From: an uncultured Candidatus Poseidoniales archaeon
Lineage (GTDB): Archaea; Thermoplasmatota; Poseidoniia; Poseidoniales; Thalassarchaeaceae
Assembly: GCA_902573015.1 (NCBI GenBank)
Contig: CACGIE010000013.1
Coordinates: 1 to 34,703 of the forward strand
Reading direction: 5' to 3'
Length of the DNA stretch: 34,703 bases
The notes beneath the pieces were generated by a model. The model ran no database searches and was not told where the DNA came from. It was given only the letters and a program-made list of their open reading frames with translations. The position numbers and the translations under genes are program-made. This document shows, piece by piece, positions 7,595-33,267 of the stretch (position 1 is the stretch's first letter; each line of letters begins with the position of its first letter).

Positions 7595-9592
7595 CTATTG
7601 TGAGAATATTTTAGGATGCCAAGATGTGATTTTACCTGTGAATGCACTGGTCATTACCGTTAGAGGACTTGCAAGATACAGCTTTCCTGGCCCAGAGCGA
7701 CCCTGGAAGTTCCTATTTATCGCAGATACAGTGACTTGTTCTGGATTGTCGCTTACTCCGGGGCCTGCACCGATGCAAGCACCACAACCAGGATCGATGA
7801 GCTTGACACCAACCTTCTCGAATATCGATGTCCAACCCATCTCCAATGAGAGATCCTTCACTGACTTTGAGCCGAATTGGATGTAGCAGTCAACTCCATC
7901 TGCAATTACAAGACCTTCTCTAAGTGCTGCTTCGCATACCATGGCATAGTACGAGAAGTCATCATCCTTACCCGCAGTGCATGAACCTGCATAGGCGATG
8001 TCTATCGGAACCTCCCCTAATTCGTCAATGTAGGCCCCGTTTGTAGGATCAGAAGGAACTCCTTCGTCAGGATCTCCAGGATGTGCTACCATTGGCCGGA
8101 TTTCTGCTAGGTCGATCTCATGAATTCCTCCATCGTAGACCGCGCATTCATCAGGTAGGACAAATCTACTCCTGATATCCCCTTCATCCATGTGCTCCCG
8201 TCTGGATAGAAGCCAATCGACTGTGATGTCGTCTGCCTCACATATACCGGTCTTCGCACTACACTCTGTAGCCATATTACACAATGTTGCTCTTTCATCC
8301 ATAGATAGGCTTGCAAGTCCCGGACCGCCGAATTCCATGCTTCTATCCAGAGTCTCAGACTCCGCAGCAAAACGCCAGAGAATATGGAGAATTATGTCTT
8401 TAGCGGTACAGCCCGGATCTAACTCGCCCATCAATTCGAAACGAATACTTTCTGGGACCTTGACGAACGCGAATTGATTATGAATAAGGTTAGCATATTC
8501 GGTGGAACCCACTCCATATGCCAGTGCATTCGAAGCGCCTCCCATGCAAGTGTGCGAATCGGTCGCCTGGATGAAGTCGCCAACATCGATGAACTCTTCT
8601 CTCGCAACTTGGTGGCATATTCCTGGACTCACCCCATCCTTAGCAGAATAGTCTCTCACTCCGGTGTACTCTTGAAAGAAATTCTGCATATCCCTCAGGG
8701 TCTGTATCTTGTCAGTGAATTTCCCAAATCTTGGAACGCCAGTAGCGTAAAGCAGATGATCCTCAAAAACAGCGAATTTAGAGGGATTTGGAATCTTGTA
8801 GTCGTTTCCGTATTCCTCTTCGAGGAATGTATGTACCTGAGCAGTAGTGAACTCGTGAGAATAGCCTCCATCGACCTGTGCTAGAACAGCATCCCCAGGT
8901 TTCACGAATTTTCTTGTCTTATCGTCCCCCAGTAGTTTGTTTGACACTAATTTCTCTATCATCGTCATCGGGCGCTCTTTAGTGTCAAATTCTGGGAGAG
9001 AAACTTCTCCCTCCTTCATCCTCTTAGCGAATGGCAATATCCCTCCGTTCTCCAGAATCAATCTACTCACTGGGTCGTACTTCTCGGTAAACTCAGTCAG
9101 AGGCACACTTTCGCCGTCCTGAAGCCTACTTAGGATCGAGTGATCCCCCATGAGCTGCCCAAGATTCAGGTTGTTTCGTTCATGTATTGGTGCAAATGAG
9201 GCCGCAATCACGATCCTGATTCCCGACCACCTCTCACACTGAGGCGCCGTCTCTCTGCTTGATCCAGTACCCTTTCTATGTCCGGAGACGATTACTTCGA
9301 AGCCACCGTCAATCAAAGCTCTGGGCTCGAACACCCTTCGACCATCGTGTATTAGCCCAGCATATGCATTTTCAGCTATCGTTGCAGGGTCGTAATCGAA
9401 GCATACCCAAGCCGGAGTCATCACATCTGTATTGATGTCATCGAGAAGATCATCCACTGACAAATCTTCCATTCGCAGGTCCAATCCTTCGTACAGTTGC
9501 TTTCGAATCAACTCCAGATCCTTTGTTAGGAACAGAACTCTCTTTCCTGAAGTGAGGCCTATCCTCTCTGGCGGCCACATTCCTTCAGACAT
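7595..9592 (-). CDS. Aconitase/isopropylmalate dehydratase-family hydro-lyase, single chain with N-terminal swivel domain
   Basis: A 4Fe-4S hydro-lyase, probably aconitase, since isocitrate dehydrogenase is encoded nearby; isopropylmalate or homoaconitate isomerisation cannot be excluded. Start chosen at ATG 9592 (MSEGMWPPER) because GAGGGGG lies 5-10 nt upstream; GTG at 9631 would add 13 residues. The 665-residue chain begins with a LeuD-like swivel domain: DDINTDVMTP (51-60) and the substrate loop GTGSSRETAP (108-117). The LeuC-like catalytic region follows: TDSHTCMGGAS (344-354), cluster ligands C538 (GSCTAGK), C603 and C606 (PGCGACIG), then NRNFQGRSGPG. Swivel-first order recalls AcnB, but the AcnB HEAT-like domain is absent. 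Classical AcnA and mitochondrial aconitase have the swivel last; LeuC/LeuD are separate chains. Confidence 0.88.
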   Translation of the reverse strand: MSEGMWPPERIGLTSGKRVLFLTKDLELIRKQLYEGLDLRMEDLSVDDLLDDINTDVMTPAWVCFDYDPATIAENAYAGLIHDGRRVFEPRALIDGGFEVIVSGHRKGTGSSRETAPQCERWSGIRIVIAASFAPIHERNNLNLGQLMGDHSILSRLQDGESVPLTEFTEKYDPVSRLILENGGILPFAKRMKEGEVSLPEFDTKERPMTMIEKLVSNKLLGDDKTRKFVKPGDAVLAQVDGGYSHEFTTAQVHTFLEEEYGNDYKIPNPSKFAVFEDHLLYATGVPRFGKFTDKIQTLRDMQNFFQEYTGVRDYSAKDGVSPGICHQVAREEFIDVGDFIQATDSHTCMGGASNALAYGVGSTEYANLIHNQFAFVKVPESIRFELMGELDPGCTAKDIILHILWRFAAESETLDRSMEFGGPGLASLSMDERATLCNMATECSAKTGICEADDITVDWLLSRREHMDEGDIRSRFVLPDECAVYDGGIHEIDLAEIRPMVAHPGDPDEGVPSDPTNGAYIDELGEVPIDIAYAGSCTAGKDDDFSYYAMVCEAALREGLVIADGVDCYIQFGSKSVKDLSLEMGWTSIFEKVGVKLIDPGCGACIGAGPGVSDNPEQVTVSAINRNFQGRSGPGKLYLASPLTVMTSAFTGKITSWHPKIFSQ

Positions 9593-9631
9593 CGTCCCCC
9601 TCACACGTGCCAGTGAACGTTCGTATTTCAC

Positions 9632-20546: not shown

Positions 20547-20660
20547 AAATCCCAGATGATACATCGGGGCTGCTGTGATACCCAAACCACAATAACGTGC
20601 CATCCATTGATAAGCATACAGAATCGGGCTGTTACTTGCCCGAGGGTAACAGTGATTTGC
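20547..20660. other. Spacer upstream of the giant surface-protein gene
   Basis: The frame of the giant protein stays open back to 20556 but its upstream part is Cys-rich and not protein-like. TTGATAAGCATAC (about 20608-20620) is a possible TATA box, which would put a transcript start near 20640 and a leader of about 20 nt containing GTGAT. Confidence 0.35.
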
Positions 20661-23600
20661 ATGAACGTCAAACTAGAAAGAAAGACACAGAAGAAAATAA
20701 TTCCAGCATTTTCAATGATAGCAATAATGCTACTTAGTCCTCAGATATCATTACTACTGAATACTGACGATTCTTCAGAGCAAGATAGCCACTTCGAACC
20801 CCCCAAGAGAACAGCATACCAACAATTGGAGCAACTTGGGGGATCAGTCCAATCTGGGAATCAAAACTCTCTATCCATGATGAGCCAATTCCAGGCCGCA
20901 GCATATCAAGACCCATTCTACAACGACCCTGCCGCAATCTACGGCAAGGTATCCGACCCATCCGCCCTCGCACTCGACCCGATGTACGGGTTCTTTCTAG
21001 AAGAAACGAACACAGACGATCACGATAACGATGGTATTGACGATCTAAATGATCTAGATGATGACAATGATGGAATTAACGATCTTATCGAGCGATTCGA
21101 TGGTTGCTTCGGAACAGATCCCCTTGACCACGATAACGATGGTGTAAGGGACGAGTTCGACTGGGATGACGACAATGACGGGATATTGGAAGGCCCAATC
21201 GACTACTCTCAAGGAAACGACCCATGGAATGTAACTTCAGATAGGCACGTAGAGCCCACGACAATCCATCCTTGGACAGGGCAGGCAGTTGGCTTCAACT
21301 ACTTAGTTGATCAGAACCCTATGGACCATGATAACGACGGAATCACTGATGAGGACGTAGACGGGTCGGGCCGCGGATCATATGATGAGGACGATGATAA
21401 CGACGGTAGAATCGATCAGTTCGTGTGGCCCTGCGATTTCGATTCAGACGGAATGCAGGATTACTTTGACGATGACGACGACAACGATGGTGTGGCAGAC
21501 ATCTCAGACATACACCCATGGGACCCCCTGCAGAATTCGTCTATCGAAACCGCACCCGGTATACTATGGGACTCTTGGTCCAGGTGGGATCCTGAGGATT
21601 ACGGAGAGTACGTCGACGGACTAGACTACGTCGCTCTTCACGCCTTGGAGCACCCTAGAGAACAGGCCTTCACGGAGATAGTGGACGGTGACCTCGATGG
21701 AGATGGAATCCCAAACTTCCTAGATCCGGACAATGACAACGACGGGTCTCCCGACTCCTCAGACACAGATGACGATAATGATGGCCTTGCCGACATGTAC
21801 GATGTAGACGACGACAATGACGGTATACCCGACTCATGCAGGCAGTTGGATACGAACGGAGACGGCCAAGGAGACTACCCTTCACAGGCATTCAACGGCG
21901 CTGTAGTGGCCATCCAAGTACCTGGAACCGATTGTGAAATAGATTATGACGGGGATTTGGATGACGATAGATTCAGAGCTATTGACGCAGATTACGACAT
22001 GGTCTGGGACTGGATCGATCCCGATATGGGGGGTTCGACGAATCCAGACAACCTACAGGGAGGATCCCAACCTTGGGACTTGGATGATGATGGAATCCCC
22101 AATGAGGAGGACCCATACCCCATGAATTCAACCGCCGAGGTAGCAACATGGGACTGTGCCAGCGTTGCGAACCCGAACCCTCAAGACCCTAGCGACAATT
22201 GTGTACTTTGGCGCACTTCCTACACTGGATTCAACGATTGGGATGGAGATGGTCTGAACAACTGGGTCGACATGGATGACGACAACGACGGAATCCTGGA
22301 TTGGCTGGATATAGACCCAGACTGCGACCTAGATAACGACGCAGATCTCCATGAGCTAAACGGCTCGATGTTCAGGGACGACGGAGCTAATGACATAGAT
22401 ACAGACGTGGATGGAGACGGCCTTCAGAACGATGAGGACTGGGACGATGATAACGATGGGATCAATGACTTCTTTGACCCCGATGACGGAAACTGCGGAG
22501 TAGTAGACATAGACAACACTGACAACTTCTGGGGGAATAGCTGGCCCCAAGGAGATGGCGATGCTATCGATGGTTCAGAGGATGGCGACGCATATGTTGC
22601 AGTCCCGAACTACTACTGGAACCTCACCTGGGGGTTCAACCCATTCAACACAGACAACAGCTTCATGCTCGACTACAACGGGTACGACCCAAACAACTTG
22701 GACAACCCAAGTGGCATCATTCCTGAGATGTACTGGACTCTGATGATGAAGTGGAGCCCCTACAATGGTGACAACTTCTTCGATATCGACAGCGACGGCG
22801 ACTCTCTGGTTAACGGAATAGACGTGGATCAGGACGGAGATGGGATGCCCGATTGGTGGGATCAAGACGAGGGCAACGACGGAGTTCTGGATGTCGATGA
22901 CGTCAAGATGGGAGGTACCTTGGACGGCAACTCATGTGGCACAGTAATCCTATCCGCAACAACCGAGAGATTCTGCGGACACATCTACGCATTCCTCTTC
23001 AAGGCGCCCCTACTTACGCCCACTCAATCAGGGGGCCAATCTTTCACTGTCCCATATAGCAGCAGGCCGGACTCTGAGTGGGACGATGGGGCATATGATG
23101 GGACGAATCATCCGACCGGAATGGGAAGTTGTGACAGCAACTGCTTCTGGTTCACATTCGATCCGACTAGCAACCCAACTCCTTCAGTTGCGTATACATA
23201 CAGCGACATAAAGAATAACAGAGATCTTTGGATAGCTTATCTCGGAGTCACCGTATTCGGATTCTTTCAGTGGACTTCGGACGCAAATAACAACTTCTTC
23301 CCAGATGAGATTGCGGACGATCTCAACGATGACGTCGATCCAGACGTGGACTGCGGGCAGCCCATGCCGGAGGTATCGTGGACCCCAAGTTGCATGTACA
23401 ACAACACGAATGACCTGGATGACGACTGGGACATAGTCTACGACCACTTCGATGTGGATGACGACAACGACGGAATCTGGGATTATTTTGAGATCGACTC
23501 AAATGATGATCTAGACGATGACTCAGGAATAGAGGAGCCGTACTACTTCACTGGGAGCAATTGCGAGGACAATGACGATGACGGCCTGGATACGGACCCC

Positions 23601-26600
23601 GACGATGATGGAATATACCAGGCAGTATGGGACAAGGGAGTACTAGGCCAGGCCCTACTATTCCCAGAGTACTACGATGTGGACAACGATAACGACGGAG
23701 TACCGGACGGTGAAGACCCAGATGACGATAATAACGGCCTACTAGACGAGGCTCAGGAGGCATTCGAAGGATGCTTCACTGGGGAAGAACAGAGCCCATG
23801 GGACCACGACAACGATGGGATAGTTAACTGGGCAGATGACGACTGGGACGGCGATGGAATTCCAAATTCCCTAGAGCTCCAGAACTTCAATGACACTAAC
23901 GGGACAGCAGATCCTTTTGACGACACCTGCTGCCTCAACTTCCCCATAGCCCCATGGGACCACGACAATGACGGGATAAGGGACGACATTGATGAGGACG
24001 ATGATTACGATGGCATGAAGGACGAGGACGAGGTGATGCTGTGGCCTTCGCGATACGGGGCCGAATCAACGAATCCATGGGACCACGATGACTTCGGAGG
24101 GGGGGTCGGACTGGCCAATCCCAATAACAACTCCACGGGTCCAGATTACTTCGACGTAGACGACGACAACGACGGAAGGGAAGACTTGGACTGGAACAGC
24201 CCCTCATCCGGAGATTGGGCCACACCATCTAACAAGATCGAGGAATCTTCAGGATGGAGCTCGGATTGGGATTCTGACAACGACGGAATTCTAGACGACG
24301 ACGACAAGATACCGACCAGAATCACTCTGACCGCTCCATCGGTATTGTGGCTAGATGAAAATCGGCCAGCGATATTCAATGGTTCTGTATTCTGGCTGGA
24401 CGACACAGGCTTCGTCCCAGCACCGGACCTCCCTGTTCAGGTCCACATCAGGTACTCTGCGAACGGCACATCCGTCATAGAGACAATCGACGTCCTCACT
24501 GATGACAACGGGGAGTACATCGTCGGCCAGTTCCTGTTCCCGGAAGACATCGATGTGGGACCGAACTCAACCTATGAGGTCTACTCTGAGGTCACAGAGA
24601 TGTTCGTACACGACTACAGCTCGACGCTTTCAGACACCGACGGAGACGGCATAGGAGACTCGGGGATGCCCGTCGAGGTAAGGGCGAACACCACGATTGG
24701 ATTCGTATCTGGGGAGAGGTTCAGATCGGACGAGCAACCACTCAAGCTGGACTTCAAGGTCCACTACTCGGCAGACTACAACAGGGGGATATTCGACAAC
24801 AGACTACCCTATGCGCCGATATCCTTCACAATTAGCGACCCAGGCCCTCAGTTCGGTAACATCACCCACCCGACTGTTTACGATGGATATGGTAACGGAT
24901 ACAGGGCTGACGCAGGAGGCTGGGTTTCACTGGCTTACAACCAATCCCTTGACGTATGGGAACAGGTCCAGTGGAACTCACTGCTCGATAATGGCCCAGG
25001 CGTCCCGACAGGTGGATACGAGGAGATAGTGTGGAATCCCTGCGGACCGTTGAATCCGGTCGGATCCCATTCTGTCATAGCGCCCTATGAGTACAAGAAC
25101 ACCTCGCTCCCTGTGGGCGACTATACATTCATGGGATTCTCCCGTCCTGATCTGGGAGGATGCACTGACGACTCCTACGAATGGCCTTGGTCCCATCTCG
25201 AGGGTTCAGAGACGGACGCCTTCTACATCCGTTCCATGCACAGGATGTTCATCGAGGCGGAAATGTCAGCCGCCTCTTTCAGGCCAGTCTACTTCTGGGA
25301 CTCAACCCAGTTCACCGGGTCGTCATTTGGCGCATGGAGAGCTCTCTTCCACGCCCCATCCCTTGCAAATGCGAATATGACATACCAGGAGGCAAGTCTT
25401 GGCAAGCCATACCCGCTTCTCTGGGACGGGACTCCTTCGGGGCTCACTGGAATAGCAGGTGGCGCCATCGCCCCGTTCCTGTCCTCTGACGGGATAAACT
25501 GGACTATAACGATGCAGAATGCGGCTGACTTCGACTCGCCACCATGCGGACCGGTCGACCCACTGGATCCCAGTAGCCAGATTCGCTGCGAGATAGTACC
25601 GGAGATATTCGCAGGTGAGTCCGTGAGGGTTAGGGGGCACGTCTGGAACAAGACAATGGTGCCCGTCACTGACTTCGATGGTGACGGAACAAAGGACCCC
25701 ATAGCCGTACAGATAGACTTGGACTATAACGGGATCTTCGCTGGCTCCATAGAGACTAGGGTGAACCAGCGACTGGATATCGATACAGAAGGACTGGCAA
25801 CGTTCGACCACGACATAATCTGGGATCCATATTGGCCAGCATCGACATACGGCTTCAGAGCCGACTTTGGCCAGGCCGACTACTTCTTCACCGGGGAGCA
25901 AGCAGGAGTCCTTGCGGCAACGGGGGCGTACGGCAACGTATCGGTCATAGGGTCCACTGACTTCCTACTGACATCTCTGACGCGCCTCTACAGGGGTCAG
26001 AATGCGACGGTAGAGGCCCGTCTGATTGACAATGCCGGGCTTCCTGTACGTGAAGCCCCAGTGAACTGGTCATGGGCCGAGGATCAATCGAGCGGTGTAG
26101 TTTTCACAGACAACAACGGGATATTCAGGGTCAATCTAACAGACATTGACACATTGGGGAACTTCTCGCTCAGTTTCACCTACCTCGGAGACAAGTTCAG
26201 GCTGGGAAGCACTGACTCAGTAGACATGTGGGTCGTTTCACGGACGTTCATCAACGTTCAGAGCACCAGTCCCAACATCAGATCTAATGGAGACCTGTGG
26301 GAATTCACCGCCGTTGTCACCGATGACAATAGAACTCCATTCGACAAGGATGGAGGCCAGGTTCTGAATAGCTGCGAGGGAGAGATGCAGGATCCTGAGG
26401 GATACGACCTCGGAGGTAACGTCACAGTAATCTTCGAGGGAATAGACTTCGAGGACAGGACCCACCGACAGATAGTATCCGTCGAGTGCCCGGCATCTGG
26501 CTCAATCGGTTATGGACAATATCTGGACCCACAGCTTCTGAAGGACGATCCATTCTCCTTCCTTCCCGACGGTTTCGGGCCCGTGAACGTGATCCTAAGG

Positions 26601-28571
26601 TTTGAGGAGAACCTGCCTCACGAGGGTTGCGAGCCCATAGACGCAGGGATGCTGTCCACGTCCGGAGCATGGGACCCCTGCGTGACCATCCTCAACAGCG
26701 ATCACTTCAGGAAGGTACTGCAGTTCCAAGTAGACGGATTCAGCCTCATCGGGAACACGGATCTGCAAGTAGACCAGCAGATAGTCTACACCTCTGAGAT
26801 AGACCTGGATACGGGACAGATACTTGAGAAGCCAATGATAGTGACTGGACAGCTAACAGATGAGCTCGGAGGAAACCTGTCAAACAGACAAATCAGAGTC
26901 ACATTCGAGATGGGATCTATGGTTTTCGACCCTGTCGAGAATCGGATGAAATTCCGTGCAGGAGATGACGGCATAGAGGCCTGTATCCCAGGAGCAACCG
27001 ATGAGAACGGATTCTTCGACATCAACTGCCCTATGACTGGCGTCGACGCAGGAATGGCCAAGGTGAAGGTAGAGTACAATGCCTGGGACCCCCTAAACAA
27101 CGACCGCTACAGATACAAGAACAAGACACAAGCGATGTTCTTCCCCGTATTCTCCAACTCGACGATCGATGTATCGGAAGTAGGCCCATTCAGGTCAGAC
27201 TACCTGACATACACCTTCCCGAACGGCTCTACCTTCGAAGTTCTATACCTGAAGGAGGCATTCCACATCAATGCCAAGCTCTCCCAGTCAAACGGGAAGC
27301 CAGTCGGTGGGAAGTGCGTCAACATTTACCTCGATCCAGAAGTAAATACCAGGCCTATAGCCACAGCATTCACTGCCGGTGGAACCGGTGAATTCGTATG
27401 GTACTCGGCAGATCCAGATGACAACCCTAGTAGGAGGGGGGTTGAGCCTAGCGGCAATAACCTCGAAGGATTCCGTACAGTCAGAGTTGCTTACGAGCCA
27501 GAACGATACGTTCCAGGGGGCTGCGACTACGAAGTTCTAGAACCAAACCCGGTTCTGAATAGCTCCGTAGTAGATGTCGAAGTCCTAGTTAGAAGCAAGG
27601 TTGACATTCTACTGAAGCAGCACTGGTCAAGTCCCGCTGGATATCAAGAGGGCGACATTATCGCCGGGGAGGTTGCAATCCTCAGAGACAGGCTGGATCT
27701 CACTGTTGAGGGACAGAGAGTAGAATTCCACAGACAGTTCTGGAATGAATCCGGAGAGTGGCAGACAGAGCGTGTGGAGATACTGATCACCAATGAGAGG
27801 GGCTCCGCGAACTTCTCCTTCCCATACACCGGTGAAACCATTCCCGGACATCCGGAGTGGAGCGCCCCAGGAGGCAAATGGAGGGTCTTGGTTCACTTCG
27901 AATCAGTAGACGCGAACAAACCCTACTTCGTAGAGAAGTGGCTCAATAGCACCCCAGAGATAAAACTGGGAGAGGGCACCTCTTCGACCTCTGGCGGGCT
28001 TTGGACCACCCAAGTCCTGGTCCTCGCCGGAATATCACTCTCGACAGTGGCATTGGTGGGTGCGATGATGTACAACAACTACAGGGAGAGACGTAAGGTC
28101 GAGGTCCTACGAGGTATACTGACCGACGCGCTAATGTCTCTCAAGGCTTCGAACAATTACATCGAGGCAATCTTCTCTTGCTACAAGGATCTCATCAAGT
28201 ACTTCAGGATGAGAGGTGCCATGAAGAAGGTCTTCGAGACCACCAGAGAGTTCGAGGACGTCATCAACAACATGCTCGGAGGAATAGTTCCCCCAGAGGA
28301 GATCGACTCCTTCTTCTCGATATTCGAGGAGGCTCGCTACTCTGATCACGACATAGGATCAGAGGAGAGGGATAGGGCGATACAGATATTCCAGTCGATG
28401 ATTGGTAGGATGAACCGATCTCTCGGAGATAGCTTACTGACAAGGGAATCAGTTGTAGAGTCCTCGTTGTACGGTCCCTCCGTGAAGGCAGGGCAGTTCG
28501 TCGATGCAGATGGAAACATAAGGTTCGCCGGAGTAGATGACGCAGAGGAAAACGACGGTTTCAAAATCTGA
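20661..28571 (+). CDS. Giant Asp-rich surface protein with DNDG calcium repeats, beta domains, membrane helix and cytoplasmic DUF4129-like tail
   Basis: A 2,636-residue protein from ATG 20661 (MNVKLERKTQKK), whose N-terminus looks like a signal peptide or anchor (basic, then AFSMIAIMLLSPQISLLL). Residues ~115-1215 carry about 18 exact DNDG repeats plus many DGDG/DDDG variants, arranged as in thrombospondin type 3 repeats (DDDNDGIPD), interspersed with Trp-rich and Tyr-rich segments. Such Asp clusters normally bind Ca2+. Residues ~1220-2430 are beta-rich modules, including an Ig/carboxypeptidase-regulatory-like style (LIDNAGLPVREAPVNWSW). A membrane helix at about 2450-2472 (TQVLVLAGISLSTVALVGAMM) is followed by basic NNYRERRK. 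The ~165-residue cytoplasmic end is helical, with a DUF4129-like stretch (YKDLIKYFRMRGAMKKVFET). Role likely adhesion, envelope matrix or polymer handling; not proven. Confidence 0.88.
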   Translation: MNVKLERKTQKKIIPAFSMIAIMLLSPQISLLLNTDDSSEQDSHFEPPKRTAYQQLEQLGGSVQSGNQNSLSMMSQFQAAAYQDPFYNDPAAIYGKVSDPSALALDPMYGFFLEETNTDDHDNDGIDDLNDLDDDNDGINDLIERFDGCFGTDPLDHDNDGVRDEFDWDDDNDGILEGPIDYSQGNDPWNVTSDRHVEPTTIHPWTGQAVGFNYLVDQNPMDHDNDGITDEDVDGSGRGSYDEDDDNDGRIDQFVWPCDFDSDGMQDYFDDDDDNDGVADISDIHPWDPLQNSSIETAPGILWDSWSRWDPEDYGEYVDGLDYVALHALEHPREQAFTEIVDGDLDGDGIPNFLDPDNDNDGSPDSSDTDDDNDGLADMYDVDDDNDGIPDSCRQLDTNGDGQGDYPSQAFNGAVVAIQVPGTDCEIDYDGDLDDDRFRAIDADYDMVWDWIDPDMGGSTNPDNLQGGSQPWDLDDDGIPNEEDPYPMNSTAEVATWDCASVANPNPQDPSDNCVLWRTSYTGFNDWDGDGLNNWVDMDDDNDGILDWLDIDPDCDLDNDADLHELNGSMFRDDGANDIDTDVDGDGLQNDEDWDDDNDGINDFFDPDDGNCGVVDIDNTDNFWGNSWPQGDGDAIDGSEDGDAYVAVPNYYWNLTWGFNPFNTDNSFMLDYNGYDPNNLDNPSGIIPEMYWTLMMKWSPYNGDNFFDIDSDGDSLVNGIDVDQDGDGMPDWWDQDEGNDGVLDVDDVKMGGTLDGNSCGTVILSATTERFCGHIYAFLFKAPLLTPTQSGGQSFTVPYSSRPDSEWDDGAYDGTNHPTGMGSCDSNCFWFTFDPTSNPTPSVAYTYSDIKNNRDLWIAYLGVTVFGFFQWTSDANNNFFPDEIADDLNDDVDPDVDCGQPMPEVSWTPSCMYNNTNDLDDDWDIVYDHFDVDDDNDGIWDYFEIDSNDDLDDDSGIEEPYYFTGSNCEDNDDDGLDTDPDDDGIYQAVWDKGVLGQALLFPEYYDVDNDNDGVPDGEDPDDDNNGLLDEAQEAFEGCFTGEEQSPWDHDNDGIVNWADDDWDGDGIPNSLELQNFNDTNGTADPFDDTCCLNFPIAPWDHDNDGIRDDIDEDDDYDGMKDEDEVMLWPSRYGAESTNPWDHDDFGGGVGLANPNNNSTGPDYFDVDDDNDGREDLDWNSPSSGDWATPSNKIEESSGWSSDWDSDNDGILDDDDKIPTRITLTAPSVLWLDENRPAIFNGSVFWLDDTGFVPAPDLPVQVHIRYSANGTSVIETIDVLTDDNGEYIVGQFLFPEDIDVGPNSTYEVYSEVTEMFVHDYSSTLSDTDGDGIGDSGMPVEVRANTTIGFVSGERFRSDEQPLKLDFKVHYSADYNRGIFDNRLPYAPISFTISDPGPQFGNITHPTVYDGYGNGYRADAGGWVSLAYNQSLDVWEQVQWNSLLDNGPGVPTGGYEEIVWNPCGPLNPVGSHSVIAPYEYKNTSLPVGDYTFMGFSRPDLGGCTDDSYEWPWSHLEGSETDAFYIRSMHRMFIEAEMSAASFRPVYFWDSTQFTGSSFGAWRALFHAPSLANANMTYQEASLGKPYPLLWDGTPSGLTGIAGGAIAPFLSSDGINWTITMQNAADFDSPPCGPVDPLDPSSQIRCEIVPEIFAGESVRVRGHVWNKTMVPVTDFDGDGTKDPIAVQIDLDYNGIFAGSIETRVNQRLDIDTEGLATFDHDIIWDPYWPASTYGFRADFGQADYFFTGEQAGVLAATGAYGNVSVIGSTDFLLTSLTRLYRGQNATVEARLIDNAGLPVREAPVNWSWAEDQSSGVVFTDNNGIFRVNLTDIDTLGNFSLSFTYLGDKFRLGSTDSVDMWVVSRTFINVQSTSPNIRSNGDLWEFTAVVTDDNRTPFDKDGGQVLNSCEGEMQDPEGYDLGGNVTVIFEGIDFEDRTHRQIVSVECPASGSIGYGQYLDPQLLKDDPFSFLPDGFGPVNVILRFEENLPHEGCEPIDAGMLSTSGAWDPCVTILNSDHFRKVLQFQVDGFSLIGNTDLQVDQQIVYTSEIDLDTGQILEKPMIVTGQLTDELGGNLSNRQIRVTFEMGSMVFDPVENRMKFRAGDDGIEACIPGATDENGFFDINCPMTGVDAGMAKVKVEYNAWDPLNNDRYRYKNKTQAMFFPVFSNSTIDVSEVGPFRSDYLTYTFPNGSTFEVLYLKEAFHINAKLSQSNGKPVGGKCVNIYLDPEVNTRPIATAFTAGGTGEFVWYSADPDDNPSRRGVEPSGNNLEGFRTVRVAYEPERYVPGGCDYEVLEPNPVLNSSVVDVEVLVRSKVDILLKQHWSSPAGYQEGDIIAGEVAILRDRLDLTVEGQRVEFHRQFWNESGEWQTERVEILITNERGSANFSFPYTGETIPGHPEWSAPGGKWRVLVHFESVDANKPYFVEKWLNSTPEIKLGEGTSSTSGGLWTTQVLVLAGISLSTVALVGAMMYNNYRERRKVEVLRGILTDALMSLKASNNYIEAIFSCYKDLIKYFRMRGAMKKVFETTREFEDVINNMLGGIVPPEEIDSFFSIFEEARYSDHDIGSEERDRAIQIFQSMIGRMNRSLGDSLLTRESVVESSLYGPSVKAGQFVDADGNIRFAGVDDAEENDGFKI

Positions 28572-30294: not shown

Positions 30295-30351
30295 TTGGGA
30301 AAGTACCGCAAAAATGGTCAGTTTGAAGGCCATCGCCCCCTTTGCATCGTC

Positions 30352-32463
30352 ATGGGTTCTACGCATTCGGACGAGGGAACCTCCGAGGCCCGGGTCGACT
30401 GGCTAGCAGAGCAGTTAGAGAGACACTCAGATCTCTACTACAACAAAGCCGAACCCGAGATATCAGATGCAGATTTCGATGCATTGAGAGACGAGCTGCA
30501 ACTCCTATCCCCCAATCATCCCCAACTGAGCAGGGTGGGCTCAGATCCTCCTCCAGGCTCTGAAAAGGTCGACCACCTATTCAGGATGATGAGCCTGGAC
30601 AAGGCTAATTCGGACGAAGAGGTATCTCACTTCGTTTCCGAGACCACCGCCAATGGTCGGCGGTTCGTTTGCCAACCGAAGCTCGATGGCTCAGCCCTGT
30701 CATTGGAATATCGTCGAGGCCGACTAATCAGAGCAGCCACCAGAGGCAATGGCAGGAGGGGCGAGGACGTGACGGCAAACGCAAGGAGGATGATGAACGT
30801 CCCGGAGAAACTCGGTTGGGACGGAGACTGTCACGTGAGGGGGGAGGTCGTAATGCCTCTGCAAGTATTCAGAGAGAAGTACTCAGAGGTTGCGCCAAAT
30901 CCAAGGAATCTAGCCGCAGGAGCACTTAGACAGAAGTATGCCGATGCAGGCAAGGGAAGCCCGAGAGACTTGCAGTTCCTTGCCTATGGAGTTGAGTTCC
31001 CAAGCGATAAGGACCGCCATCCAGACAGTCCTGAGCCCCCAAGATTCAAGCTCGACTCGGAGATAATCTCATGGATAGGCGAGATGGGGATTCAGGTGGC
31101 GGGAAACCATGTGGTTTCAGGTGACGACGACACTACCACCACAGAATCCATACTGGCAGTGACAAGGGAGTGGCTCGAGTCGAGAGACTCTGCGGTCTGG
31201 GAAATAGATGGGGTCGTGATCAAACTAGACCGTCTGGATAAGCGCGGCCTCCTAGGCGAGACCGCGCATCACCCTCGATGGGCACTGGCATGGAAATTCC
31301 CTGCCGAGGAGGCGGTAACGGTGCTGATGGACGTCTTCTGGCAGACCGGGAGGACTGGCAACGTCACCCCGGTTTCGCGCGTAGCACCGGTGGTAGTTTC
31401 AGGAGTTACCGTTGAGAATACAACACTCCACAACAAGGGCGAGGTTGAGAGGCTCGGGATAATGATCGGGGACAAGGTGAGAGTGGTTAGAAGGGGGGAC
31501 GTAATACCAAAAATCACTGAGGTCCTTGGACCAGCCCATGATAGCGACCTCATTGGCAGGTCCCATTCAGATGGAACCCCTTTCTCAGAACCACTACCTT
31601 CCAGGTGCGAGATTCCAGTTCCCGAGAGATGTCCAAGATGTTCCACTGACCTAATTATCGATGGGGCATTCATCAGATGTACCAACATAGACTGCCCATC
31701 GAGACTAGAGAGAGCAATACTGTACTGGTGCAGGAAGCTGGGTATGGATGGGATAGGCGAGAAGCTGGCAGAGCAACTTTGCTCATCGGGGCTGGTCACG
31801 AGTTTGGGGGATCTATATCGGTTGGAGGACAGGGAGCAGGAGCTAATCTCACTAGAGAGAATGGCCGAGAAGTCAGCCAGTAACGTCCTCGAGGAATTGA
31901 ACTCCACCAGAGCCATGACCTTCAGCACCTTCATCTCAGCACTTGGACTGCCTAGGATCGGTCCCGAGATAGCAACTCTCGTCTGTGCGGAGGTGAAGAC
32001 TCTCGAAGAGCTGATACAGATGACCGAGGAAAGACAGGAGGCCATGCAGAGACTGGTTTCCATAGACAGGGTAGGAGAGACCGTGGCCAACCTTCTGCTG
32101 GATGGTATTTCCGATAGGAAGGAGTCGATAATGGACCTCTATGAGCAGGTGGAAATCGTCGAAGGAGAGCAGACATCCGTCGATGGCCCCCTTTCCGGCT
32201 CTTCCTTCTGCATCACAGGCACTCTGAGCAGACCAAGGAAGGAGATTGCTCTTTCGATAAAGTCAGAGGGAGGCAAGGTCGTCTCGTCCGTCTCAGGGAA
32301 CCTAGACTTCCTAGTCGCAGGAGAGTCATCTGGATCAAAGTTCGACAAGGCCAACAGGCTTGGTGTCCGAATCATATCGGAATCGGAGTTGGACGAGATG
32401 CTGGAGGGGTCAATACTAGAGGAGCTGCCCGAAGAGAGGCAGTCTACGCTCGGAGAGTTCTGA
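30352..32463 (+). CDS. ligA: NAD+-dependent DNA ligase (bacterial type) with a C-terminal PIP-like peptide
   Basis: Seals nicks using NAD+ as adenylate donor, the standard replicative ligase of bacteria. Start chosen at ATG 30352 (MGSTHSDEGT), 57 nt after the tRNA; 703 residues. The Ia domain that recognises NMN is HSDLYYNKAEPEISDADFDAL. The adenylated lysine is K110 in PKLDGSALSL. The OB-fold follows (FWQTGRTGNVTPVSRVAPV), then a zinc finger with C427, C430, C443 and C448, helix-hairpin-helix repeats and a BRCT domain (about 612-690). The final residues are RQSTLGEF, matching the archaeal PCNA-interacting motif QxxLxxF, which bacterial LigA normally lacks. Most archaea rely on ATP-dependent ligase, so this gene is probably acquired from a bacterium. 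No strong ribosome binding site is seen. Confidence 0.96.
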   Translation: MGSTHSDEGTSEARVDWLAEQLERHSDLYYNKAEPEISDADFDALRDELQLLSPNHPQLSRVGSDPPPGSEKVDHLFRMMSLDKANSDEEVSHFVSETTANGRRFVCQPKLDGSALSLEYRRGRLIRAATRGNGRRGEDVTANARRMMNVPEKLGWDGDCHVRGEVVMPLQVFREKYSEVAPNPRNLAAGALRQKYADAGKGSPRDLQFLAYGVEFPSDKDRHPDSPEPPRFKLDSEIISWIGEMGIQVAGNHVVSGDDDTTTTESILAVTREWLESRDSAVWEIDGVVIKLDRLDKRGLLGETAHHPRWALAWKFPAEEAVTVLMDVFWQTGRTGNVTPVSRVAPVVVSGVTVENTTLHNKGEVERLGIMIGDKVRVVRRGDVIPKITEVLGPAHDSDLIGRSHSDGTPFSEPLPSRCEIPVPERCPRCSTDLIIDGAFIRCTNIDCPSRLERAILYWCRKLGMDGIGEKLAEQLCSSGLVTSLGDLYRLEDREQELISLERMAEKSASNVLEELNSTRAMTFSTFISALGLPRIGPEIATLVCAEVKTLEELIQMTEERQEAMQRLVSIDRVGETVANLLLDGISDRKESIMDLYEQVEIVEGEQTSVDGPLSGSSFCITGTLSRPRKEIALSIKSEGGKVVSSVSGNLDFLVAGESSGSKFDKANRLGVRIISESELDEMLEGSILEELPEERQSTLGEF

Positions 32464-33267
32464 TCATCCGTACATCCCAGTAGAAGCACCGCTACTCTCC
32501 TGAGGGGGATTCAGGTGCACAGCCATCATCTCACGTATCTGACCCTCTATTCTCTGAGCCTCCTCCATGAGGGGTTCCGGATCCAGATGGACTGCAGGTA
32601 GAAGTCCGTCTAAGCATCCGATTATTCCCGCTGCTGCACGGGCATCGGGGATCGTCCCTTGGCCGATCTCTCCATCTGACTCTGCAAGTATCGCCAGTGC
32701 GTCAATCCCTCTTCTCCTACACTCTCCCATCATCACTCCAGTCATGCCTCCCACTACTCCTTGTTTCAGAAGAGGGACGCCGATTCCCTTGAGCACTTCG
32801 TGGGTAGAATCCGTGGATCCTAGCCCCAGAATCGAATCTGTCCCCGGATCCTCGTCGAAAATACTGTGCAGACTCTCTATTCCGTGTGCGAATGAATCGA
32901 CCATTATCGTAGAACTCACTCCCGAGTCCTCTATCCAGTCGATTATTCCAGATGATAATGGAAGATTGAGCTCAGATGGGATATGTATCTCCGATGCGAT
33001 AAGTACCACCTTGTCGCACTTCTCCATGTTGCATATCGGCTCTCCAGCATAGAATCTCAGTGGAGGCAGGGGCTTGCCATCTTGGACCAAGCACATTGGG
33101 GGAAGGTTTGGATGCCTGACGCCCCCGACAAGCTCTAAATCCAGCTTTTCCACCATGAAGTGTGCAACTATGCTGCTAACGAATCCGACTGACGGGAAAC
33201 AACTAACCAGAAGGGCACCAGAAGCATTCACGTCATCGCCAACCTCGACCAGAGGGGCCCCTTGCAT
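32464..33267 (-). CDS. PAC2-family protein (proteasome assembly chaperone-like)
   Basis: A 267-residue member of the PAC2/PbaA-like family. The signature is SCFPSVGFVSSIVAHFMVEK followed by GGVRHPNLPPM and LPPLRFYAG; a glycine-rich segment appears at GVVGGMTGVMMGECRRRG. Archaeal relatives are linked to proteasome assembly or are uncharacterised. Starts at ATG 33267 and is divergent from the PD-(D/E)XK nuclease. Its stop abuts the ligA stop (TGATCA at 32461-32466), so the two genes converge with no spacer. Confidence 0.8.
   Translation of the reverse strand: MQGAPLVEVGDDVNASGALLVSCFPSVGFVSSIVAHFMVEKLDLELVGGVRHPNLPPMCLVQDGKPLPPLRFYAGEPICNMEKCDKVVLIASEIHIPSELNLPLSSGIIDWIEDSGVSSTIMVDSFAHGIESLHSIFDEDPGTDSILGLGSTDSTHEVLKGIGVPLLKQGVVGGMTGVMMGECRRRGIDALAILAESDGEIGQGTIPDARAAAGIIGCLDGLLPAVHLDPEPLMEEAQRIEGQIREMMAVHLNPPQESSGASTGMYG

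Follow-up and report, generated by a model that had tools for sequence, protein, structure and literature searches.

The window analysed here, 34,703 nucleotides of contig CACGIE010000013.1 (assembly GCA_902573015.1, 63% complete) from an uncultured Candidatus Poseidoniales archaeon of the Thalassarchaeaceae, encodes LigA, an NAD+-dependent DNA ligase of a bacterial family that ends in the heptapeptide QSTLGEF. Based on sequence comparisons across the order, we propose, with a probability of about 0.87, that the C-terminal tail of Poseidoniales LigA is a PCNA-interacting peptide (PIP box), carried by a bacterial-family ligase that stands in for the ATP-dependent enzyme. PIP boxes and the switching of clamp motifs, in NucS and EndoQ, are already known, and none of the matches listed in the open PubMed Central (PMC) literature reports by its title a PIP box in an NAD+-dependent ligase. 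The tail would be a natural case of a bacterial-family enzyme connected to the archaeal replisome through a plug of seven residues that resembles those of the host's own clamp clients, without the enzyme being remade, in organisms that are among the most numerous microbes in surface waters (PMC10160649). Below, genera, families, genomes and loci carry our own g, f, G and L numbers.

The gene and the parts of its product that matter here are as follows.

30352..32463, forward strand: ligA, NAD+-dependent DNA ligase, 703 amino acids (Pfam domains, invariant residues)
32182..32400, forward strand: BRCT domain, residues 611-683 (Pfam BRCT, E 3.5e-13; also in the structural model)
32401..32439, forward strand: linker from BRCT to motif, residues 684-696 (sequence variable; length varies across the order)
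32440..32460, forward strand: QSTLGEF, PIP-box-like C-terminal peptide, residues 697-703 (sequence, conservation, Fen1 profile)

The open reading frame spans 30295-32463 on the forward strand, with a TGA stop at 32461-32463, and the ATG at 30352 is the likely start, favoured over an upstream TTG at 30295. The product reads ...EELPEERQSTLGEF up to the stop, and the codons CAG TCT ACG CTC GGA GAG TTC occupy exactly 32440-32460, which places QSTLGEF at the extreme C-terminus, beyond the BRCT domain, just as the sequence-only reading had it. Pfam recognizes Nlig-Ia, adenylation, OB, HhH and BRCT domains. In 25 aligned LigAs, K110, D112 and G113 of the KxDG motif are invariant, as are cysteines 427, 430, 443 and 448, from which, rather than from a Pfam match, the zinc finger was assigned; the protein thus has the LigA order Nlig-Ia, adenylation, OB, Zn, HhH, BRCT together with the KxDG lysine. 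The solved structures nearest in sequence (1dgs, 2owo and 5tt5) are all DNA ligases, and the best named LigA matches are 98% identical to the window protein.

The heptapeptide lies 14-20 residues past the Pfam BRCT match. An AlphaFold2 model built with 25 sequences has a mean predicted local distance difference test score (pLDDT) of 80 and a predicted template modelling score of 0.50, and it gives residues 689-703 a pLDDT below 50 and no secondary structure; the last 15 residues are predicted to be unstructured, as expected of a tether. The peptide fits the pattern Q-x-x-(L/I/M)-x-x-aromatic at a flexible terminus, flexibility being judged by model confidence only, and it stops at the first aromatic, the second one of QxxLxxFF not being present. 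We also considered the tail as an element of the BRCT fold, for which the model gives no support, low confidence with 25 sequences being weak evidence.

LigA matches are present in 269 of the 292 Poseidoniales genomes, and we read 150 C-termini, 130 of them picked over the genera before any tail had been seen and 20 later, partly to test g4 and g8, two unusual genera. When only the last 12 residues are counted, 101 carry Q-x-x-(L/I/M)-x-x-(F/Y/W) and 133 carry the core with its aromatic, with or without the Gln. The expectation that the tail would be conserved among archaeal relatives was therefore borne out, in close and distant ones alike. A further 28 Poseidoniales loci, all with the motif, overlap with others and are kept out of the counts. 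The 17 ends with neither form are 13 from g4, L085, L150 (its end is unlike that of its nearest relative, and a tail was not seen), L144 (QTSLYDH, without an aromatic at +3 from the Leu), and L096, whose bases are masked and which is counted as a miss here and excluded from the shuffle test, the trees and the Fen1 profile. L085, from G019, has a TAG at the position of its relatives' Gln codon with SVLAEF-stop readable behind it, which may be a true truncation or a sequencing error.

The leader between BRCT and motif ranges from roughly 5 to 35 residues, and its sequence and length vary between genera. L/I/M-x-x-F/Y/W falls in the last ten residues of 105 of 108 distinct post-BRCT tails, against a mean of 7.6 and a maximum of 16 of 108 over 500 shuffles, a result that is not a probability because relatives are not independent. 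This set is limited to tails of at least eight residues and so lacks g4 (no tail), L085 and L023, as well as the masked L096; L023 has the motif (QATLGEY) and was dropped by the landmark used for cutting. In the 106 tails with the core near the end, where the Leu and the +3 F/Y/W are universal by construction, position -1 is S/T in 104, +2 is D/E in 104 and Gln is present in 78; the +1 column is free (F 49, G 31, then D, M, L, S, E, A and T). Pairwise comparison of 30 g1/g7 genes gave 521 synonymous and 29 nonsynonymous differences in the codons of Q, L and the aromatic (one F to Y), as compared with 837 and 378 in the remaining four motif codons and 3303 and 1944 in the linker. At the codon level, the Q, L and aromatic positions are thereby shown to be under purifying selection.

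The tail matches the ends of the order's own clamp clients. Of 25 Poseidoniales genomes, 19 yielded Fen1, and all 19 proteins end in L-x-x-F/Y, 17 with Gln and 2 with Lys. The sequence-only reading had remarked that only the second aromatic of the full motif was missing; it is indeed absent, yet this is no defect, because 18 of the 19 Fen1 proteins also terminate on the first aromatic. We built a profile from 34 Fen1 peptides, 19 from Poseidoniales and 15 from other families; 23 non-Poseidoniales loci were at hand, and those excluded had short ends (L286, L301), a cut-off gene (L307) or unread ends (L293, L295, L296, L299, L303). On this profile, 101 of 129 Poseidoniales LigAs score beyond the 99.9% point of the shuffled tails, and the 99% point is passed by 114; no LigA among 18 from bacteria and 60 from other Thermoplasmatota scores (0/78). 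The window peptide reaches 13.5, where the 99.9% point of 2580 shuffled tails is 11.3 and their maximum 13.9; taken alone, it is good and not overwhelming, so the weight lies in conservation. RNase HII of the window's own genome ends in QSALDEWE, and it belongs to the 10 of 25 genomes whose RNase HII carries the full motif; in 12 others the protein has a shorter QxxLF/W, and in 3 it has neither. Six of these proteins (L260, L261, L263, L268, L280, L283) end in a short QxxLF-stop, which is closer to the bacterial clamp motif than to a full PIP box.

As for the clamp itself, PCNA matches were obtained in 22 of 25 Poseidoniales genomes. The C-terminal LAPR(I/V) is kept in all 21 sequences aligned, and the centre and interdomain loops align; the window genome's own PCNA, aligned to PCNAs of the Protein Data Bank, keeps the interdomain loop and ends in LAPRI. 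These segments frame the PCNA pocket (PMC3504372, in part), and the host PCNA would thus have a conserved pocket, as judged by sequence segments only. G002, a single contig that is 96% complete, gave no PF00705 (PCNA) match, as opposed to the other ten f2 genomes tried; its clamp is perhaps diverged. No beta clamp was found in any of 36 genomes tried, the window's included. A genome-wide DNA pattern for PIP-like C-termini, which missed TGA stops, returned 6 matches versus 9 in the reversed control and was not used.

Bacterial LigAs served as the counterpart, in a small and mostly plasmid-borne sample of 19 (15 plasmid records and 4 assemblies), 18 with a readable end. Neither QxxLxxF nor LxxF occurs in the last 12 residues of any of these 18, in agreement with the prediction that the motif would be missing from bacterial LigA. 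One of them, L257, on plasmid pAZI09 of Azospira sp. I09, ends in TQPSLF-stop, so that a sequence agreeing with the beta-clamp motif occupies the same terminal position. Outside the order, the Gln form QxxLxxF is found in 0 of 60 LigAs from other Thermoplasmatota families, and an LxxF-type core is found in 10 (9 of 14 in f5, 1 of 31 in f16). Two other-family LigAs have short-form ends, QKTLF (L203) and QSTLL (L228).

Among the control genomes, the LigA adenylation family occurs in 10 of 10 from bacteria and in 1 of 4 from archaea. The comparisons turned up no bacterial donor, the best bacterial identity being ~36% over nearly the whole protein among the matches listed; phage and plasmid LigA matches all fall below 60% identity, one scan of viral contigs gave no viral relatives, and haloarchaeal LigN does not appear among the matches listed. 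The sequence-only reading spoke of an imported bacterial ligase adapted to the archaeal clamp by gaining a short tail. Our comparisons support such an adaptation of a bacterial-family ligase, and the word "imported" follows from family membership, because no donor was found. A phylogeny of 112 LigAs sets the 55 Poseidoniales rows on one side of a branch with a Shimodaira-Hasegawa-like approximate likelihood ratio support of 100. They adjoin one long-branched f26 row, L219, which has no tail, and the other 37 Thermoplasmatota rows lie elsewhere; this tree is quick and midpoint-drawn, contains a large number of long branches and points to no donor. Where the order is rooted is uncertain, since a second tree has a very long outgroup branch and places f2 rows in more than one position.

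The ATP-dependent ligase domain PF01068 was detected in 1 of 284 Poseidoniales genomes, as a weak match in a 2025-residue frame, and in 139 of 292 genomes across the phylum. This near-absence agrees with a table in PMC4153887 that, on our reading of its flattened text, assigns Marine Group II (Poseidoniales) a horizontally acquired NAD+ ligase and marks the ATP ligase absent or unavailable; the passages of that paper on the Marine Group II ligase do not mention a tail. LigA is probably the main replicative ligase of Poseidoniales.

Natural exchanges of the ligase body bear on the tail as well. In six of eight g8 genomes examined (L099, L100, L101, L334, L335, L336) and in one g3 genome (G003, L345), the LigA body nests in the tree among those of the other Poseidoniales family, near g15 and g20. 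The g8 swapped bodies are 74-79% identical to g15 versus 56-58% to native g8, and the G003 body reaches at best 74% to g15 versus 55% to other g3; it is closest to the g8 recombinants (77%) and may for that reason have come via g8. The tails are nonetheless those of the hosts: all 8 g8 rows end in DDW(I/L/M) and all 9 g3 rows have QQMSL, endings found in no other of the 150. Downstream DNA was compared in L099, L100, L101 and L345. In best local alignments, similarity to a host-genus relative starts 23-34 bases before the end of the stop codon and continues downstream in L099, L101 and L345; against other g3 relatives L345 matches downstream only (from the stop with L074), as does L100 with host-type DNA. 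By these alignments, ligA was replaced in place in g8 and in G003. The host tail may have been kept by selection, or the crossover may have fallen there by chance.

The f5 LigAs L189, L191, L192, L195, L220, L224, L231, L241 and L244 bear Gln-less LxxF tails beyond BRCT. These tails (e.g., IVTLDEFFK) follow a linker and resemble the PIP of Thermococcus kodakarensis DP2, ISLDEFFGS (PMC7594292, in part); none of the 14 f5 LigAs passes the Fen1 profile. The f5 LigAs form a clade of their own, and judging from its sequence their tail may have been gained independently, as a second event. One may go further and see in the tail a host-specific clamp adaptor that is selected independently of the enzyme, recombination having left the host tail after between-family replacement of the body in g8 and g3, and f5 having grown an LxxF tail of its own, so that archaea would repeatedly have fitted bacterial-type ligases to PCNA by a few C-terminal residues. 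We hold this extension tentatively, at somewhat less than even odds.

Several observations weigh against a PCNA-interacting tail. All 13 g4 LigAs (L079-L083, L337-L344) stop at BRCT, mostly with MLQP-stop and no tail, whereas Fen1 in the g4 genomes G007 and G015 retains QSTLFDF; no ATP ligase was found in either of these two genomes. The core lacks the Gln in 32 of the 133 tails that bear it, and 15 of 129 LigAs do not reach the 99% point on the Fen1 profile, among them those of g4, damaged ones and the g8 tails GTLDDW. PCNA was not matched in 3 of the 25 Poseidoniales genomes, nor was Fen1 in the window's own 63%-complete genome, so the Fen1 comparison rests on relatives. In f16, 30 of 31 LigAs have no match and the single one lies within the BRCT end, though PCNA was found in 2 of 4 f16 genomes tried. 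Judging from the C-termini of f16 and of most LigAs in a second clade of the phylum, an archaeal LigA need not have a tail. Since g4, including genomes without a detected ATP ligase, and the f16 ligases do without it, the tail is not strictly needed, which argues for a benefit rather than an absolute need. The tail-less genus, the stop codon in one tail and the natural body swaps are ready controls for the value of clamp attachment to a ligase.

Could the peptide instead be a bacterial beta-clamp motif (QxxLF) that came with the gene and has persisted by inertia or been put to new use? For bacteria, the published consensus reads QL(S/D)LF or QxxL(x)F (PMC4976356, in part); Poseidoniaceae-type tails such as QPSLFDF include QPSLF, and the Azospira plasmid LigA ends in just these five residues. 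We nevertheless grant this origin only a very small probability. A beta clamp was found in none of the 36 genomes tried, and the +1 residue, F in QxxLF, is F in only 49 of the 106 tails and G in the window's genus (L-G in the window itself), while the aromatic stays at +3; these rows having been selected for the +3 aromatic, only the freedom of +1 is informative. Moreover, of the 17 LigAs without the +3 core, 15 are tail-less or damaged, one is masked and one has LYDH, and no bacterial LigA scores on the Fen1 profile (0/18).

In other proteins, short C-termini of acidic and aromatic residues bind several different partners, and the tail might bind something other than PCNA, e.g., PolD, RPA or a chaperone, or act as a C-terminal stability signal. 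This is highly unlikely in our view, given that the same C-terminal type stands on Fen1 of the order and its full form on 10 of 25 RNase HII proteins, and that the literature counts Fen1 and RNase HII among the PCNA clients of archaea (PMC7776575, PMC3504372, both in part). A chance or compositional ending without function draws on the shortness of a seven-residue motif, on the best of 2580 shuffles, which matches the window peptide, and on g4, which has no tail; its probability is close to negligible in view of the 105 of 108 tails as opposed to at most 16 in shuffles, the synonymous turnover with residues fixed, the host-type tails kept on replaced bodies, and conservation across most of 22 genera.

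The PCNA-interacting peptide therefore remains our preferred explanation, and we can sketch how it would work. A flexible leader after BRCT would end in Q-x-(S/T)-L-x-(D/E)-(F/Y), the Leu and the aromatic entering the hydrophobic pocket beneath the PCNA interdomain loop and the Gln occupying the polar pocket beside it, on the pattern of archaeal Fen1 and RNase HII. Tethered to PCNA in this way, like Fen1, the ligase would join these clients on the clamp and seal the nick that they leave, sealing being coordinated on the clamp via the tail. PCNA binding, hand-off on the clamp and an early gain of the tail in the order are what we infer from the comparisons above.

Archaeal PIP boxes often end the protein, as in Sulfolobus Fen1 (PMC3504372, in part), and those of Fen1, RNase HII and the PolD subunit DP2 resemble the LigA tail in their position at the extreme C-terminus, their QxxLxxF pattern and their flexible leader. 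Variation of the kind seen here has precedents, at least in the parts of the sources available: Archaeoglobus fulgidus RNase H binds PCNA without a second aromatic (PMC3504372), and the T. kodakarensis DP2 motif has no Gln (PMC7594292). Fen1, RNase HII and DP2 are native archaeal enzymes, whereas the Poseidoniales tail sits on an enzyme of a bacterial family. NucS/EndoMS and EndoQ come closer, for in each case one family spans both domains of life, its archaeal members carrying a C-terminal PIP and its bacterial members a beta-clamp motif (PMC8228993, PMC4858679, both in part); these are repair nucleases, while LigA is a bacterial family that occurs in archaea and, in Poseidoniales, apparently serves as the main ligase. 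The ATP-dependent DNA ligase of Pyrococcus furiosus is also tied to PCNA, as we propose for Poseidoniales LigA, but it belongs to the other ligase family and uses a short internal motif, QKSFF (PMC4858679, in part). Haloferax volcanii LigN is likewise an NAD+ ligase that an archaeon acquired from bacteria, and it differs in coexisting with an ATP ligase with which it is redundant (PMC7776575, PMC1684257, both in part); the word PCNA is absent from the available text of the paper characterising LigN. In Helicobacter pylori, LigA is held to a sliding clamp by a short peptide, the clamp in that case being bacterial (PMC4976356, in part).

Three other genes of the window deserve mention.

32464..33267, reverse strand: PAC2-family gene, convergent with ligA (its stop abuts the ligA stop, zero gap)
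20556..28571: 2671-amino-acid protein with only a sub-threshold Ig-like Pfam match
7595..9631, reverse strand: aconitase-family protein

In the last of these, the Aconitase_C match (113-160) lies ahead of the core (250-666). In aconitases the swivel domain is more commonly placed after the core; the known exception is the AcnB type.
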